Source: Candidatus Saccharimonadota bacterium (GTDB lineage: Bacteria; Patescibacteriota; Saccharimonadia; Saccharimonadales; Saccharimonadaceae). Taken from it: a DNA stretch of 64,000 bases. Below the pieces are notes generated by a model that saw only the letters and a list, made by a program, of their open reading frames with translations, was not told the DNA's origin and did not search any database. The DNA is taken from NCBI GenBank assembly GCA_027492465.1, contig JAPUET010000024.1:62001-126000 (forward strand). Direction: 5' to 3'. Positions 8,543 to 52,787 of this stretch are shown in pieces (position 1 is the stretch's first letter; every line of letters starts with the position of its first letter). The translations under genes and the position numbers were made by a program.

Positions 8543-8682
8543 TTGCGTTATTGGCAAACTGTTATATACTAAAACGACTATGATTCATTAGAATCCTCTA
8601 TTCGTGCATGCTGGGACGTGACCAGCCGCTGGCGATTATTCACTGCGTCTACTAAACTAGTTCAAAGAAAGGTTTTTTCACG
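8543..8682 (+). promoter_or_regulatory. promoter and leader of ABC exporter operon
   Basis: A likely promoter TTGCGT (8543-8548), 16-bp spacer, TATACT (8565-8570). The roughly 105-nt leader has two small hairpins (GATTC/GAATC near 8582-8595 and GCTGG/CCAGC near 8610-8626) and ends in AAAGAAAGG before the TTG start. Exporter leaders of this kind can sense translation blockage, but no leader peptide is evident. Confidence 0.5.
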
Positions 8683-10431: not shown

Positions 10432-12196
10432 AATCAATCATACCGTAAAATCTTTTGACATTTATCGATATTTTATTAAAGTTCCTATACCTAGACCATT
10501 CATGAAATGGATTATTTTTCTGCTTGTTCCCAGTACCGTTATTCTAGAACGCTATATCTCGCCGCTTATTATTGCAGTTATCTTGAATGACATACAGCAC
10601 AGCAGTATTACGTTAACTTCAGCACTCTGGCTCATCATTATCTATGCTGCCATCCAGATTTTTGTGCAAGTAGTGGGATATCGCCTGATTCTGTTCTGTA
10701 TGTGGGGGGCTCAGGTTCAGGGCGCCAGAAACATGTATAACGAACTATATAAAAAAGTGACTGCACATTCACTTAATTTCTTTAATAATCAATTTGTCGG
10801 CTCGCTCGTCTCGCAGTCCAGTAAGATTGTTACTGCTTACATAAATTTCTGGAATCTTATTACATATAAAGTGCTGTTCGTCGTAACATCAGTCATTGCG
10901 ACAATTGTTGGTCTCTCATTTATTATGTGGCAGTTCGCATTAGTTACTTTGGTTCTAGTGGCCCTATTTAGCATCGCAGCTGGATACGGCATGAAATTCA
11001 TTAGGCCGAAATTCCAGGCTCGCTCCGAAGCATATTCAAAAATTTCAGGAGCTTTATCCGACTCGTTTTCAAATATACAAGCTATCAAAATGGACGGAAT
11101 GGAACGTCGAGAATTCACAGAAATACAAAAACATAGTCAAGCCGTTACGCGCGCAGAGCTAGATGCTCGAAATAGTTTTGTAGTAGTATCTTCTATTTAT
11201 TCGCTCATCATGGCTCTCATACGTATAGGCGCGCTTGTCGCATCGGTACTCGCAGTACAGTACGGATTTGCCAATGCGGGACTAGTCTACATAAGCCTTA
11301 CCTATAGTTTTAACCTTATTGAGGAAATATGGAATATCAGCGATATCATACGAGATCATCATCAAATCATCTCCGATTCAACCGAGATGTATACTATCAT
11401 GCATATGAACCCTGAGGTAAAAGATAATTCAAATAAGGATCTCAGTGTGTCAAATGCTAGTTTAACATTTGACAATGTTACGTTTAAGCATACGGGAACT
11501 GATGGTTCACTGTTTGAACACTTTAGCCTCAAGATTCCAAATGGTCAAAAAGTGGGTGTTGTTGGTATTAGTGGCTCTGGCAAGACAACGCTTACAAAAT
11601 TACTTCTGCGATTCATGGATATTGAAGATGGCGCAATACGTATTGATCACCAAGACATTGCAAAAGTTTCGCAGCAGAGTTTGCATAGAACAATTAGTTA
11701 TGTACCGCAGGAACCTATACTCTTTCATAGAAGTATTGGGGAAAATATCGGCTATAGTCGTACAAACGCCTCACAAGATGACATACGCAGTGCCGCGAAA
11801 CAAGCTCATGCTGACGGCTTTATTGAAGAGCTTCCTGACGGCTACGAAACAATGATTGGTGAGCGTGGCGTGAAACTATCAGGTGGTCAGCGTCAGCGTA
11901 TAGCCATTGCTCGCGCAATTTTAAAAGATGCCCCCATCCTTATTCTGGACGAAGCTACATCGGCCCTCGATTCTAAAAGTGAACTTCTTATTCAGAAAGC
12001 TATCGAAAACTTATGGCATAATAAAACAGCCATCGTCATCGCTCATCGACTCTCCACTATAGCACGACTTGATCGCATTATCGTTTTACACGATGGCAAG
12101 ATTATTGAAGACGGGACCCACGCAAATCTTCTCGCAAAAAACGGCACCTACGCGAAATTATGGAACCACCAAAGTGGCGGGTTTATTGAAGAGTAG
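10424..12196 (+). CDS. ABC exporter half-transporter (second subunit)
   Basis: 590 residues with six membrane spans and an ATPase domain (Walker A GISGSGKTT at about 384, LSGGQRQRIAIARA, LILDEATSALD, IAHRLST). It is paralogous to the first subunit and overlaps its end, so translation is probably coupled. A 26-bp stretch coding for the C-terminal KLWNHQSGG is identical in both genes (10390-10415 and 12155-12180), suggesting recent conversion or strong constraint. A terminator follows at 12211. Confidence 0.92.
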   Translation: MNKINHTVKSFDIYRYFIKVPIPRPFMKWIIFLLVPSTVILERYISPLIIAVILNDIQHSSITLTSALWLIIIYAAIQIFVQVVGYRLILFCMWGAQVQGARNMYNELYKKVTAHSLNFFNNQFVGSLVSQSSKIVTAYINFWNLITYKVLFVVTSVIATIVGLSFIMWQFALVTLVLVALFSIAAGYGMKFIRPKFQARSEAYSKISGALSDSFSNIQAIKMDGMERREFTEIQKHSQAVTRAELDARNSFVVVSSIYSLIMALIRIGALVASVLAVQYGFANAGLVYISLTYSFNLIEEIWNISDIIRDHHQIISDSTEMYTIMHMNPEVKDNSNKDLSVSNASLTFDNVTFKHTGTDGSLFEHFSLKIPNGQKVGVVGISGSGKTTLTKLLLRFMDIEDGAIRIDHQDIAKVSQQSLHRTISYVPQEPILFHRSIGENIGYSRTNASQDDIRSAAKQAHADGFIEELPDGYETMIGERGVKLSGGQRQRIAIARAILKDAPILILDEATSALDSKSELLIQKAIENLWHNKTAIVIAHRLSTIARLDRIIVLHDGKIIEDGTHANLLAKNGTYAKLWNHQSGGFIEE

Positions 12197-18423: not shown

Positions 18424-18445
18424 AAAAAAACACCCTATTGGGGTG
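18424..18445 (-). terminator. intrinsic terminator of the GC-rich RNA locus
   Basis: On the minus strand, CACCC (from 18445) pairs with GGGTG (to 18431) around a 5-base loop, followed by seven T (18430-18424). It ends transcription arriving from 19077 and lies just upstream of the exonuclease I promoter. Confidence 0.85.
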
Positions 18446-19077
18446 CTTACGCTAACAATTGGATGATGACAGGTGGATACATATCTGGCAGAGAGAAGAG
18501 TTGGGGTGGTGGGACTGGAGAGGCGTGTGGCCTCGCGGATGGGCAGCATCGTCGCCGTCCCCAGTCCCACCACGAGTGGATGTGTACTTCGCGGCGGCTA
18601 CCTACGGTAGCTAGGTGTCACGCATGAGACACCTCCCTTCTGTGTTCGCCGAGTGGACTGTTCTGTGGCCGGTTACCCGGCTGTGGGCGGTGAACGGTTC
18701 ACCACTCCTCCTTTCCCCTATATGGGAGCCGATTGCCGCTTCCCCTCGTCGATGGTGGGGACGAGCGGCTGTTAACGTTGGCCTCGAGCTACTGGAACAG
18801 CGGCTCGGACGGAGCGCGGATCATTCCGCGCCTCCTTTCTCCTTCCACGCGTGGAAGGTTACGCGACATGGTCTCGGCCTTTATCGGGGCCTCACGCAGG
18901 CGCGAGGTCGAGACAGTTGATATCCAGGGGATACCAACCCCACGGCACATTACCGTAGGTGACAATCTACCACCTCTGATAGCCTGTCACCTACGGTAAA
19001 TACCGAAACAACTCTGTAAAATAATACATATCCAACCTGTCAAGGTACGGTTCGAAGGGTATGTTTCCTGCGACCGT
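18424..19077 (-). ncRNA. large GC-rich structured RNA, unassigned
   Basis: About 650 nt on the minus strand, bounded by a consensus promoter and an intrinsic terminator, with no convincing long reading frame. It is clearly richer in GC than its surroundings. Perfect or near-perfect helices include: 18951-18964 with 18985-18998 (14 bp, TACCGTAGGTGACA); 18506-18518 with 18561-18573 (13 bp, GTGGTGGGACTGG); 18841-18858 (18-bp palindrome); 18814-18820/18825-18831; 18689-18694/18698-18703; 18614-18619/18628-18633; 18597-18602/18606-18611; 18668-18672/18677-18681. Three purine runs (RGAARGGAGG-type) each precede a small hairpin (18831, 18707, 18632). I find no RNase P, tmRNA, SRP or 6S consensus. 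It lies between obg and the exonuclease gene. It could be a new RNA class or a foreign GC-rich remnant. Confidence 0.7.
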
Positions 19078-19083
19078 AATATC

Positions 19084-19112
19084 ATTATAGCATACTAATG
19101 ATAGTATGTCAA
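19084..19112 (-). promoter_or_regulatory. consensus promoter of the GC-rich RNA
   Basis: Minus strand TTGACA (19107-19112), 17-bp spacer, TATAAT (19084-19089) preceded by TGC (extended -10). Predicted start near 19077. It lies just after the obg stop. Confidence 0.88.
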
Positions 19113-20620: not shown

Positions 20621-21814
20621 CTAGTGGATGTACTTATAGTAGCCGCTGGTCGCCTCTGTCCACGAAAGGTCGCCTCGGCCCACGCGAGCGAAACCGCCAC
20701 CAAAGCGATAGCCGTTCATTTCGCTAATCGTAATTGAAACGCCGGGGTTAACTGCTTCAACAATTGCTACGTGACCATAGCCGCCACCATTTTGCATAAT
20801 AGCGCCCGCTTCTGGATTACCGTCAACCAATAGTCCAGATGCTTGGGCGGCATAAGCCCAGGTGTTTGCATTACCCCAAAAACTACCAACTGGACGACCA
20901 AGCTGTACACGACGCTCATAAGCGTACCAAGTACAGTTACCCCAGGCGTAACGGTTGCCCGCCGAAGCGCTACTGTAATACGCGCTGCTTGAACCGCCTG
21001 AGTAGCTTGTGGTGCTATACGTAGTCGTACGAGGCGCAACGTAGCCAGGTCGCTCATTCGCAGGTAGTACGCCACCAGGCAAAATGAGCTGTGTGCCAGC
21101 CGCCGGAGCGCTCGCAAGCTCGAGGTCGTTATAGGCTATAATACTCGCCTTGTCGGTACCGTATTTACTAGCGATACTATCTGCAGTATCACCCGCTTTA
21201 ACAGTATAAAGAATACCGCTAATCGGAAGGATAGTGAGTGTTTTTCCCGGATCGAGAGCGTCAGAAGTAAGATTATTGGTCCACTTGATCGTATCGCCCG
21301 AGATACCATATTTTGACTCTAGTGCCTGCACAGTGTCGCCTGCGACAGTCGTATAACTCTGCGGCGTACGGCTACCACTCGTAAGCTGTACAATCTGAGG
21401 CTTACTGATGACATTTGAGTCGGTTTGTGCCAAAGCACTTTCTACCGCTAGTGACTGCGATAAGTTTGCAATATTGTTGCTAATTGGCATGTCAGTACTC
21501 TCCGCAAGCGAAGAAGCAAATTTTGTGGCCATAAGCTGGTCGACCGATGCAGCCGAACTCACAGTGTTGGCAGTAGGTGCCGCAACGGGGCTTGAAGCAT
21601 CCGCAAGCGCTTTTTTAGCGACAGGGGGGTGATATCCAAGTGCAATAACAGATACTACAAACAGAAAAACGCCAAAATAAGTGGCGACTGTTGTTCCGGA
21701 AATAGAGCCACGAGCTTTTCGAGCACGAAGATTCGGCTGTACGAAGCTTTCAGGGGATTCAAGTTGGCGAGCTTGGCGAATTGCCAAGTCAATTGATTGA
21801 TTACGAATAATCAC
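20621..21814 (-). CDS. secreted LysM-CHAP peptidoglycan hydrolase
   Basis: 397 residues. One N-terminal membrane span (about 43-64, ATYFGVFLFVVSVIALGYHPP) acts as signal anchor. Two LysM repeats (about 152-197 and 204-249, each TVxAGDT...) bind peptidoglycan. A C-terminal CHAP domain (about 285-397) has NRYAWGNCTWYAY with the catalytic Cys, and GYGHVAIVE with the catalytic His. CHAP domains cut peptidoglycan amide or peptide bonds. The apparent start GTG (21814) overlaps the AAGGAG site with no spacer, so the exact start is doubtful. A leader of about 230 nt precedes it. Confidence 0.88.
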   Translation of the reverse strand: MIIRNQSIDLAIRQARQLESPESFVQPNLRARKARGSISGTTVATYFGVFLFVVSVIALGYHPPVAKKALADASSPVAAPTANTVSSAASVDQLMATKFASSLAESTDMPISNNIANLSQSLAVESALAQTDSNVISKPQIVQLTSGSRTPQSYTTVAGDTVQALESKYGISGDTIKWTNNLTSDALDPGKTLTILPISGILYTVKAGDTADSIASKYGTDKASIIAYNDLELASAPAAGTQLILPGGVLPANERPGYVAPRTTTYSTTSYSGGSSSAYYSSASAGNRYAWGNCTWYAYERRVQLGRPVGSFWGNANTWAYAAQASGLLVDGNPEAGAIMQNGGGYGHVAIVEAVNPGVSITISEMNGYRFGGGFARVGRGDLSWTEATSGYYKYIH

Positions 21815-22079
21815 TCCTTGCGAAATACTATTACTAGTACCGCGGCTACCTTCACTCTGTCTTTCCCATCCGTAGATGGCAGAACGCGCTTGTCGACCGA
21901 TATTTAGATTAGTATCAAATAGTTAGGGTATCTCAGCGTTCGTAACGACATTTCAAGGTAGGCACTATTGCATTTCATGTGTATTTTCCACCCGCGAATA
22001 TCCAATAAAATATAGTTTCCTACCGATATCCGTGGCAATGTGCTTGTTTAATTTTACCAAATCAACCACCCTTTGTCAA
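21815..22079 (-). promoter_or_regulatory. promoter and long 5' leader of LysM-CHAP gene
   Basis: Minus-strand TTGACA (22074-22079), 17-bp spacer, TAAAAT (22051-22056). The leader of about 230 nt has several short helices, for example CCATC/GATGG with a 4-base loop near 21879-21892, and a conserved-looking GGGAAAGACAGAGTGAAGG stretch. Wall-hydrolase genes in other bacteria often carry c-di-AMP riboswitches; I could not match that consensus, so the leader is unclassified. Confidence 0.6.
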
Positions 22080-50492: not shown

Positions 50493-50521
50493 TTGACATT
50501 TATGCAATTTTGTGATAATAT
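50493..50521 (+). promoter_or_regulatory. promoter reading into the GC-rich block
   Basis: TTGACA (50493-50498), 17-bp spacer, TAATAT (50516-50521). Transcription would start near 50528 and give a leader of about 290 nt before the ATG at 50820. Confidence 0.7.
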
Positions 50522-50527
50522 GGAAGA

Positions 50528-50819
50528 GTCACAGTGAGCGAGGTGGAACGCGCTTGCTTAAGATGGGAACATTGACAATCAGACTATACCTTATTGTATT
50601 AGTCTGTTATAGGGGTAGCAACAGTTGTCATGAACGCTCACGGCCACTGTTGCTGCTCTTATAGCAGCAGAGTACACGAATCAAATATATGGTTTCTCCT
50701 GAAGTGAGGGTAGCATGGTTGCGCTTAATATATTAGGCTCAAGCATGCTGCCCTCACAAAGGGGCGCAGCAGATCGTAACGGGACAGTCCCGTCGATCGT
50801 GCCCCTGAAGGAGGCCAAA
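50528..50819 (+). promoter_or_regulatory. structured 5' leader of GC-rich genes
   Basis: Possible pseudoknot: GTGAGCG (50534-50540) with CGCTCAC (50635-50641), interlocked with AGCAACAGT (50617-50625) and ACTGTTGCT (50646-50654). The latter competes with TGCTGCT/AGCAGCA (50651-50657/50663-50669). CAGACTA/TAGTCTG (50580-50586/50600-50606) nests inside. A 14-bp hairpin with one G-U pair (50704-50717/50744-50757) and then a GAAGGAGG ribosome site precede the ATG. It looks like a regulatory RNA; no known class recognised. Confidence 0.5.
50567..50579. repeat. left copy of 13-bp direct repeat
   Basis: GAACATTGACAAT, identical to 52706-52718. The two copies bracket the GC-rich block (2,139 bp apart). 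Confidence 0.7.
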
Positions 50820-51245
50820 ATGCCCATGTCCAACGTTACTTCCAAGGCCCTCCCGTTCGCCGGAATTCTCAGCGTGGCCCTCGGCGCTCTCAGCACCTGG
50901 ATCACGCTCGTTCCCGGCAAGCTCACGGCCAAGAACACCCCGTTCTGGCCGTTCGTCGTGGCCGGCCTGATCACCCTGGTGGTGGTCTTCGCCATCGCCA
51001 AGGCGCGCAAGCGTCAGCGACGCACGACGCCCCCGAGCTTCTCGTGGGGTCTGGTGATCGCCATTGTGGCAATCGCCGTGATCCTGGCCGGCGCACTCGG
51101 TGCGCTGAGCAGTCTGCTTGTCGCTGGAACCCTCAAGATGACCGCCTTCTGGTGGTCAATGATCTGGGGGATTGCCGCGGGAGCGGCCGCCGGCCTCGGC
51201 ATCGCGATCGTCGACCGGGCAATCGCCCGGGCGAAGACCAACTGA
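50820..51245 (+). CDS. GC-rich small membrane protein, unknown
   Basis: 141 residues from the ATG at 50820, which follows GAAGGAGG by 6 bases. Four hydrophobic spans at about 10-30, 40-60, 75-98 and 105-125, with a basic loop (KARKRQRR) after the second. Codon use is strikingly GC-rich in third positions, unlike the rest of the window. It precedes the lipoprotein gene by 35 bases in the same direction. No family recognised; actinobacterial-style codon use suggests transfer. Confidence 0.65.
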   Translation: MPMSNVTSKALPFAGILSVALGALSTWITLVPGKLTAKNTPFWPFVVAGLITLVVVFAIAKARKRQRRTTPPSFSWGLVIAIVAIAVILAGALGALSSLLVAGTLKMTAFWWSMIWGIAAGAAAGLGIAIVDRAIARAKTN

Positions 51246-51280
51246 ACCAACCAACCCAACACCGAAAGGAAGGTACGCTG

Positions 51281-52582
51281 ATGAAGCGCACCACCACCTG
51301 GCGCGGAGGGTTGGTCGCCCTCTTCGTCCTCTTCGCGCTCGCCCTCACGGGCTGCGCGGGGGCGGCTCCCCAGGAGCTACCCAAACTGACTAAGACGACG
51401 CAGATCGAGAAACTCGACTGCGCCGCCGTCGGGAACGCGCTCGACCGTCTGAGTGCGGTCGAGAAATCGTCCGCAACAAAGGAGGAGAAGGCTGCGTTCA
51501 GGACGGAGACCGGGATTGACCCGGCCGACAAGAAGGCGGTCAAGGAACTGCGCAAGCGGCTCAAGGCGCGCGAGAAGGTGGCATGTGAGGCCGACCGCCA
51601 GTTCACCGTGCCGGTGAACGAGGAAGAGGTGAACGCTTCGGCGTTCAACGCCCTCGTGAGCCGGTGCGGCGCGCGGCTGGACCGCTCGTCGATCGTGGCC
51701 CCCGCCAAGGGCGACAAGGCGTCCTTCTTGCTGAAAGGCAAGGGGGACGCAGTAAAATCCTGGCGGGACTACCAGTGCCATCTGGTGCGCAACCCCACGC
51801 TCGCAGATGCGTGGGGTCAGGCGATCAGTGCCCTGAAGACCCCCAGTGGGTCCACGGGCAAGGCACTGAACAGCGGCTGGCTGCCGGCGGCGCTCAACAA
51901 GGGCAAGGACTCCCTCGCGGAGGCCTGGCTCGAGAAGAGGGGCGACGGTAAGCTGTACGTCACACCCGACTTCCAGCGATTCGCGTTCAAGATCGTCACG
52001 ATCTTGAACCGTCTGGAGAAGAAGCGTGGCGATGGGTTCGCCAAGTGGAGCTACGCCCTCGAGACCTTCAGGGGCGACGGGCTGCCGCGCGCATTCCGCA
52101 CCACCAAGGGTTACTACGGGCAGTTCATTCTGCTCAAGTACACCCCGAAGGGGTGGTCGTGCTCCTCCGTCGTCTTGGGGATCAACGTCAAGGACGGCCG
52201 TCCGGCCGGTCTGAAGACGTACTGCTCGTCAAGCGGCAAGCCGACCGGCACGCCACCCGGTGAGCACAAGTACACCTGCAAGGGTGGAAAGTGCAAGACG
52301 GCGCCTCGATGCAAGCACGGCGTCTGCCCCAAGACCGGGAGCAATCCCGGTCTGACAACCCGAGGAGAACACCACTCCGTCTCCAATGGAGACGGGAGCA
52401 AGATCTCCAACGGCAAGCAAGGCAATCCCAAATCCGACGCCAAGAAGGCCAAGAAGAAGGCCAAGGCAGAGGAGGCAAAGAAGAAAAAGGAGGCCGAGAA
52501 GAAGAAAAAGGAGGCCGACACCGATTCCGGTGGCGGCGACGAGGACCACGGGGAGTCGGGCACCCCCGATTGGGAGGGGTGA
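51281..52582 (+). CDS. GC-rich secreted lipoprotein with Lys/Glu-rich tail
   Basis: 433 residues from the ATG at 51281 after GAAAGGAAGG. The signal RGGLVALFVLFALALTGCAG contains a lipobox (LTGC), so it is probably a lipoprotein anchored at Cys. The middle (about 30-290) is a soluble domain with DAWGQAI and KLYVTPDFQRFAFKIVTILNR that I do not recognise. A cysteine-rich segment follows (CKGGKC, CKHGVC). The last 80 residues are a charged Lys/Glu/Ala repeat ending in GESGTPDWEG. Codon use is GC-rich like the gene before it. Likely surface-exposed; function unknown. Confidence 0.65.
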   Translation: MKRTTTWRGGLVALFVLFALALTGCAGAAPQELPKLTKTTQIEKLDCAAVGNALDRLSAVEKSSATKEEKAAFRTETGIDPADKKAVKELRKRLKAREKVACEADRQFTVPVNEEEVNASAFNALVSRCGARLDRSSIVAPAKGDKASFLLKGKGDAVKSWRDYQCHLVRNPTLADAWGQAISALKTPSGSTGKALNSGWLPAALNKGKDSLAEAWLEKRGDGKLYVTPDFQRFAFKIVTILNRLEKKRGDGFAKWSYALETFRGDGLPRAFRTTKGYYGQFILLKYTPKGWSCSSVVLGINVKDGRPAGLKTYCSSSGKPTGTPPGEHKYTCKGGKCKTAPRCKHGVCPKTGSNPGLTTRGEHHSVSNGDGSKISNGKQGNPKSDAKKAKKKAKAEEAKKKKEAEKKKKEADTDSGGGDEDHGESGTPDWEG

Positions 52583-52589
52583 TTGATTC

Positions 52590-52656
52590 GTGTGCTCCAC
52601 CCGGGGCACCGTGCGCAAGTAGATCCGTCTACCGCGTGCGGTGCCCCCGGGCACAC
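52590..52656 (+). terminator. GC-rich hairpin ending the block
   Basis: GTGTGC (52590-52595) pairs with GCACAC (52651-52656), outside a near-perfect stem (52601-52616 with 52634-52650). It lies just after the lipoprotein stop. There is no T-run, so it resembles the hairpin-only terminators of high-GC bacteria. Confidence 0.6.
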
Positions 52657-52705
52657 ACCTACTACAAAAAGGTATAGTTTGATTGTTCCAGCCCGTGCAG
52701 GTGAT

Positions 52706-52753
52706 GAACATTGACAATTTAGTTTTGCTTATTGGTTATTTATTTTGTCAATG
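52706..52753. repeat. right copy of 13-bp repeat and dyad before surface protein
   Basis: GAACATTGACAAT (52706-52718) repeats 50567-50579. It also forms a 9-bp dyad, CATTGACAA with TTGTCAATG (52745-52753), upstream of the surface protein gene; this could be an operator. A weak promoter TTGTCA (52745-52750) with TTTACT (about 52768) may start the gene. Confidence 0.55.
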
Positions 52754-52787
52754 CTTATTACTAATAATTTACTAAAGGAGAATGTAT

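Follow-up and report, generated by a model that had tools for sequence, protein, structure and literature searches.

A structured RNA gene between obg and exonuclease I

The window, a stretch of 64 000 nucleotides from a tiny epibiotic bacterium of the Saccharimonadaceae (contig JAPUET010000024.1), carries on its minus strand a GC-rich RNA gene of ∼650 nt between obg and the exonuclease I gene (Table 1). The original prediction had placed a promoter and an intrinsic terminator around this segment, and both were found, on the minus strand; the promoter consists of TTGACA (19112-19107), a 17-nt spacer and TATAAT (19089-19084), with the extended TG present. As had been foreseen, the segment lacks a long ORF: the longest sense frame, which starts at a TTG, would encode 58 aa, and a 101-aa frame at the locus is antisense. 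The GC content is elevated (61% at 18500-19000 vs 47.6% window-wide), and the two strong hairpins that had been noted are both present. The minimum free energy (MFE) of the 653-nt RNA is −297.7 kcal/mol (z = −13.3), a value that none of 20 dinucleotide-shuffled sequences reached. Three features were absent from the original prediction, namely a long-range helix that closes the RNA body, a boxA-like element, and three micro-ORFs preceded by Shine-Dalgarno (SD) sequences. As in rRNA (rrn) operons, the boxA-like element (19045-19038) follows shortly after a leader hairpin, and the closing helix, in which 19042-19024 pair with 18484-18467 and a single U is bulged, starts at boxA.

Table 1. Features of the RNA gene, and further units built like it, one in the window and five in the genus mate G001.
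Feature	Position	Strand	Remarks
Promoter, σ70-type TTGACA-17-TATAAT with TG extension	19084..19112	−	12/12 match
Leader hairpin	19047..19077	−	boxB-like position, about 7 nt past the −10 box; fold z −3.4
boxA-like element CCTTGACA	19038..19045	−	in register with TTNAMA motifs of orthologs and of the G001 rrn leader
Closing (leader-trailer-like) helix, 5′ half TGACAGGTTGGATATGTAT	19024..19042	−	pairs with 18484-18467 in the MFE structure, and equivalently in orthologs
Strong 5′ hairpin	18950..18999	−	15 bp perfect inside a 23-nt arm pair
Micro-ORF MIRAPSEPLFQ	18789..18824	−	preceded by AAAGGAGG
Micro-ORF MVNRSPPTAG	18673..18705	−	GTG start; preceded by AAAGGAGG
Micro-ORF MRDT	18611..18625	−	preceded by AAGGGAGG
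Strong 3′ hairpin	18506..18573	−	15/16 pairs (arms 18506-18521/18558-18573)
Closing helix, 3′ half ATATGTATCCACCTGTCA	18467..18484	−	MFE pairing and ortholog comparison
Intrinsic terminator	18428..18448	−	8-bp stem, then T-rich DNA
Second unit of the same plan	50493..52690	+	promoter 50493, boxA about 50570
Second unit, closing helix ACAATCAGACTATACCTT / AAGGTATAGTTTGATTGT	about 50574-50592 / 52671-52690	+	
G001 unit			67-aa orphan
G001 unit			DUF1523 protein (PF07509; phrog_301)
G001 unit			SPFH/Band_7 protein (phrog_200)
G001 unit			231-aa protein
G001 unit			142-aa + 473-aa pair, same DUF11 locus as the window's second unit

An Rfam search had been proposed as a check on novelty. With Rfam 15 (4227 families), neither the whole window nor the RNA region, the latter searched with E-values up to 10, gave a match for the RNA; only chance-level miRNA and lncRNA matches appeared up to E 10, and a search of eight related loci returned nothing for this RNA. 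No hallmark of RNase P, tmRNA, 6S or SRP RNA had been recognized from the letters, in agreement with this result. The RNase P RNA (RF00010) and tmRNA (RF00023) models did not match at the locus, and in the window's genome, as in its genus mates, their genes lie elsewhere: the former at G000:C2:16156-16494, with one copy per genome in 13/13 genomes, the latter with its best match at G000:C2:12999-13395. Likewise, 6S RNA, SRP RNA, riboswitches, group I/II introns and the large RNAs ROOL, GOLLD and OLE, where in Rfam, gave no gathering-score match. An rRNA was rejected as well, the window being free of rRNA matches and the body between the helix halves varying by species. Our literature searches found no description of such an RNA class.

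Two known elements scored above their gathering thresholds elsewhere in the window: MDR-NUDIX (RF02918) at 8577-8635 (+) and lysM-TM7 (RF03005) at 21814-21963 (−), the latter 3 kb from the RNA and upstream of a LysM gene beside obg. A recurrent leader, AAGCTTTT..AAAAACAAAAAGC..CCTTAACA, was observed downstream of a promoter at G000:C2 (L196, about 11912-11988, minus strand) and in many genomes of the family; in several genus genomes it lies about 1-3 kb from tmRNA, and no closing stem was found with it.

Orthologs share a building plan

When the RNA was compared with 13 genus genomes by blastn, only the promoter of one relative matched. Rapid sequence divergence makes blastn blind to the orthologs, and we therefore located them by synteny and architecture. 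The order of obg and exonuclease I is kept in many Saccharibacteria, and the gap between the two genes was inspected in 80 GTDB loci and in genus mates. Units of the same build were present in the genus mates G001, G009, G010 and G004, and at loci L010, L015, L016, L019, L023, L024 (two units), L029, L031 and L035, with tandem units at L016 and L031. The gap lacks the RNA in several genus mates (e.g. G005, G007 and G012); since other relatives have no insert at this site, the element is accessory.

The sequences of the orthologs diverge almost completely, whereas the building plan is constant. A promoter is followed by a leader of 30-50 nt with a hairpin (mean fold z −2.1 in 21 units), an rrn-type boxA with the motif TTNAMA, one half of the closing helix, which starts inside or just after boxA, and a strong 5′ hairpin. 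After a variable body with SD-led micro-ORFs come a strong 3′ hairpin and the other helix half, with the terminator or the next gene following closely. All 21 units examined have strong hairpins immediately inside the two helix halves, with a mean z of −5.7 for the 5′ and of −5.3 for the 3′ hairpin. The conserved part is the wrapper, i.e. leader hairpin, boxA, closing helix and flanking hairpins, and the interior is hypervariable.

This comparison bears on two further proposals of the original prediction. A 10-nt arm, ACCTACGGTA, does occur at both 18600-18609 and 18989-18998, and had been taken to allow the 5′ and 3′ domains to swap pairing. The recurrence is confined to the window's RNA and essentially absent in the orthologs, where one other unit has a 9-mer, so that the switch is unsupported. 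The second proposal, a new class of large ornate RNA, survives in altered form. The RNA gene is real on comparative grounds, and it is large, structured, outside the known families and has homologs in other Saccharibacteria; the notion of a lone RNA with a conserved internal fold was not upheld.

The closing helix covaries and distinguishes the units

Covariation in other Saccharibacteria had likewise been suggested as a test, and the closing helix covaries strongly. We aligned 15 units by boxA register with a fixed linker, after removing the bulged U from the window's sequence. Changes on both sides were seen at 14/14 pairs, with 88.6% of cells pairing and a covariation score of 0.927 vs 0.249 for shuffled and 0.10-0.17 for slid sequences; pairing is inflated here by the choice of the 3′ halves as best complementary stems. 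Because of this selection, the loci were also tested individually against shuffled downstream sequence, and the closing helices of the units outscored almost all of these composition-matched shuffles.

The combined promoter, leader and boxA pattern has exactly two matches in the window, with 0.00 expected. Promoter plus boxA, for which the boxA motif is short, proved only modestly specific and was rejected as a detector: it occurs in 198/245 genomes of the family and also in 152/287 across the phylum. It is the closing stem alone that discriminates units from such background loci: it is significant at 19/38 of the family's promoter-boxA loci, compared with 2/20 of those from other families. 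One of these two, L262 (G371), looks like a genuine unit. It combines a leader hairpin and boxA with a closing stem of 15 perfect base pairs (TGACAAAGCAAGGTT) that spans 726 nt, so that units of this kind may also occur outside the family. GC-rich islands were discarded as a marker: the first 950 kb of G001 contain 29 of them, and only 6 correspond to units. Many of these islands (L090-L137) hold genes with a G+C content at third codon positions (GC3) above 0.8, and those outside boxA-closed units may be recent acquisitions.

The units are laid out like an rRNA operon

In a blind screen for a promoter and the best long-range stem, with boxA not required, the G001 rrn operon (score 52.5) ranked near the top beside the units. 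Its boxA (GTTATTTAACAA) runs directly into the 16S processing stem (TTTAACAATTTGGTTGTGCAA/TTGCACAACCAAATTGTTAAA), which is the layout of the units. For the antitermination complex of E. coli rrn operons to form, boxA is both required and enough; 30S subunits cannot form without the leader-trailer helix, and boxC is proposed to stay close to the polymerase until the trailer emerges and can pair with it (PMC10250234). The units resemble this boxB-boxA-boxC leader in their leader hairpin and in a boxA placed directly before the 5′ half of a long body-closing helix. The protein side of the parallel is present too: a NusB gene was found in 13/13 genomes of the genus, and G001 has an RNase III-like ORF. 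The units differ from the rrn operon in their body, which is not rRNA, is hypervariable and holds micro-ORFs or protein genes, in that many have their own terminator, and in that several can occur per genome.

A search for Rho (TIGR00767) in the 13 genus genomes gave nothing above the cut-off (best 57 bits vs 509 needed), the weak hits probably being ATP synthase subunits. With Rho not detected in the genus, we rejected a Rho-antagonising antitermination leader; classical protection from Rho is an unlikely reason for the boxA, and assisted helix closure seems the better reading.

Micro-ORFs and enclosed protein genes

Units of the non-coding type carry SD-led ORFs of 4-50 codons. In 9/32 of them, micro-ORFs end in a C-terminal [STAGRN]GFx(0-2)-stop signature (e.g. 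MHTSGFT, MFTSGFE, MYTSGFI, MVRSGFT, MEYTAGFV and MLYWSGFI), compared with a mean of 0.11 and a maximum of 2 in 200 rounds of shuffled units, and 0 on the antisense strand. In the units of relatives these micro-ORFs are conserved at the peptide level with varying synonymous codons. The three micro-ORFs of the window's RNA lack the signature.

Other units enclose full protein genes. The second unit of the window holds two genes (GC3 0.85 each), one for a membrane protein of 141 aa and one for a putative lipoprotein of 433 aa, and five further units in G001 enclose ORFs (Table 1). The 433-aa protein is 32% identical over 155 residues (E 2e-10) to the 473-aa protein of G001; it had no match among phages and viral contigs, and we discarded a phage origin for it. 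The corresponding DUF11-locus unit in genus g2 has closing helices of 18-33 nt with z up to 13.6.

Between the closing helix of the second unit and the DUF11 surface protein gene (52782), a second boxA-like motif (GAACATTGACAATTTAG) was noticed at 52690-52781. G009 and g2 genomes have AATTAACAATT(C/T)(G/A)G at the equivalent position, an arrangement resembling the 16S-boxA-23S layout of rrn operons. Two identical copies of a promoter-like sequence, each with an inverted repeat of 22 bp, lie 2.5 kb apart in G001, at 139135 (+) and 141744 (−); this pair is probably an insertion sequence.

A model for boxA-closed transcripts, and its alternatives

We hold with moderate confidence that the locus yields a stable, stand-alone RNA that is transcribed and packaged like an rRNA precursor, as one of a family of 'boxA-closed' transcripts. 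The RNA would belong to a widespread and apparently undescribed class of transcripts closed in the rRNA style, some with tiny or full-length protein genes. The computational analysis establishes the architecture, the synteny, the covariation, the micro-ORF conservation in relatives and the GC3 bias described below. The strong promoter would initiate the transcript, and the leader hairpin and boxA could recruit NusB/S10 to RNA polymerase. The 5′ strand of the helix, next to boxA, would be held while the body is synthesized; as its partner appears towards the end of the transcript, a leader-trailer-type helix would close co-transcriptionally before the terminator, as in pre-16S rRNA. Trimming of this helix by RNase III is predicted to leave an RNA with joined ends and a strong hairpin inside each, which should be a hard target for exonucleases and so presumably stable. 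The fast-evolving, GC-rich body with its several SD-led micro-ORFs may be translated, and given these micro-ORFs the RNA is probably dual-function, i.e. both a structural RNA and a micropeptide message.

A possible but unlikely alternative is that the wrapper is a stabilized expression platform producing abundant, long-lived mRNA, with the members at obg/exonuclease I being micropeptide operons rather than functional non-coding RNAs. Genes for full-length proteins do lie inside the same wrapper, both in G001 and in the window, among them those for the DUF1523 and SPFH/Band_7 proteins with PHROG matches. Coding is also suggested by the synonymous changes in the conserved micro-ORFs, and by the SD-led ORFs of at least 15 codons in the structured units at obg/exonuclease I, in which GC3 is 0.86 vs 0.53 for GC1 and 0.58 for GC2. 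However, most of the ∼650 nt of the window's RNA is strong structure, its ORFs have 4-11 codons, and no sequence conservation links the interiors of different species.

The codon usage raises a second alternative, which we regard as improbable: that the RNA is exported into the actinobacterial host, e.g. via a type IV secretion system, and is translated or acts there. ORFs enclosed in G001 units have a GC3 of 0.90 (TTC 0.96, AAG 0.95, ATC 0.97, TTA 0), whereas the genome as a whole has 0.48 and a region of ribosomal-protein genes 0.45; the SD-led ORFs of the structured units have 0.86. At the DUF11 locus GC3 remains at 0.77-0.91 in three genus genomes (0.85 in that of the window, 0.88-0.91 in G001, 0.77-0.88 in G009) despite the far-diverged proteins. 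Two encoded proteins match phage protein families, and Saccharibacteria possess an essential conjugation-like type IV secretion system (PMC10633639). On the other hand, the g2 units at the DUF11 locus are near-native in GC3 (0.39-0.69), and host codon usage fails as a universal rule. The bias could stem from selection on the ORFs to be read in a host of high GC content, or from sequences picked up repeatedly from such hosts and from phages; recent transfer from these sources would likewise raise GC3. The epibiont's own 16S rRNA has a standard anti-SD, so that translation at home is not prevented. The boldest form of this idea is a bacterium-to-bacterium RNA delivery system, in which the micro-ORFs and genes of rRNA-mimicking, end-closed RNAs would use host-like codons because these RNAs enter the actinobacterial host cell and are read there; we consider it very improbable.

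Scarcely plausible is a mobile DNA cassette with the stem halves as terminal inverted repeats and the hairpins as recombination sites: the patchy occupation of a hotspot downstream of obg, the tandem units at L016 and L031 and the hypervariable inserts would fit, but conservation reaches past the 'repeat' to the promoter, leader hairpin and boxA outside it, the repeat sequence varies between units and covaries, the rrn operon has the same layout, and no transposase or integrase was noted in the units.

The favoured boxA-closed transcript also stands apart from other known systems. ROOL, GOLLD and OLE are likewise hundreds of nt long, highly structured and largely non-coding (PMC12286853), whereas the window's RNA has no Rfam match (at gathering score or E up to 10), its interior is not conserved, and the units combine micro-ORFs with a boxA adjoining the closing helix as in rrn. 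The lysM-TM7 RNA (RF03005) is also a structured RNA of Saccharibacteria; it is, however, a cis-regulatory element of ∼140 nt, and no similarity between it and the window's RNA was detected. Antitermination by boxA also operates on non-rRNA transcripts, e.g. CRISPR array leaders. These share with the units a boxA outside rRNA and a long, poorly translated RNA; the units differ in having a closing helix and flanking hairpins, in having no noted CRISPR-type repeats, and in a genus in which Rho was not detected. What is new is the combination, as its parts, boxA and the leader-trailer helix, are already known from rrn operons.

One of the most abundant groups of uncultured bacteria would have borrowed the route of rRNA production, boxA plus leader-trailer closure, for non-ribosomal RNAs and messages. 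The units offer a testable case of boxA use where Rho was not detected, together with a conserved micropeptide signature (SGFx-stop). They are candidate loci for how epibionts make unusually protected RNAs, possibly of relevance to the interaction with their hosts.
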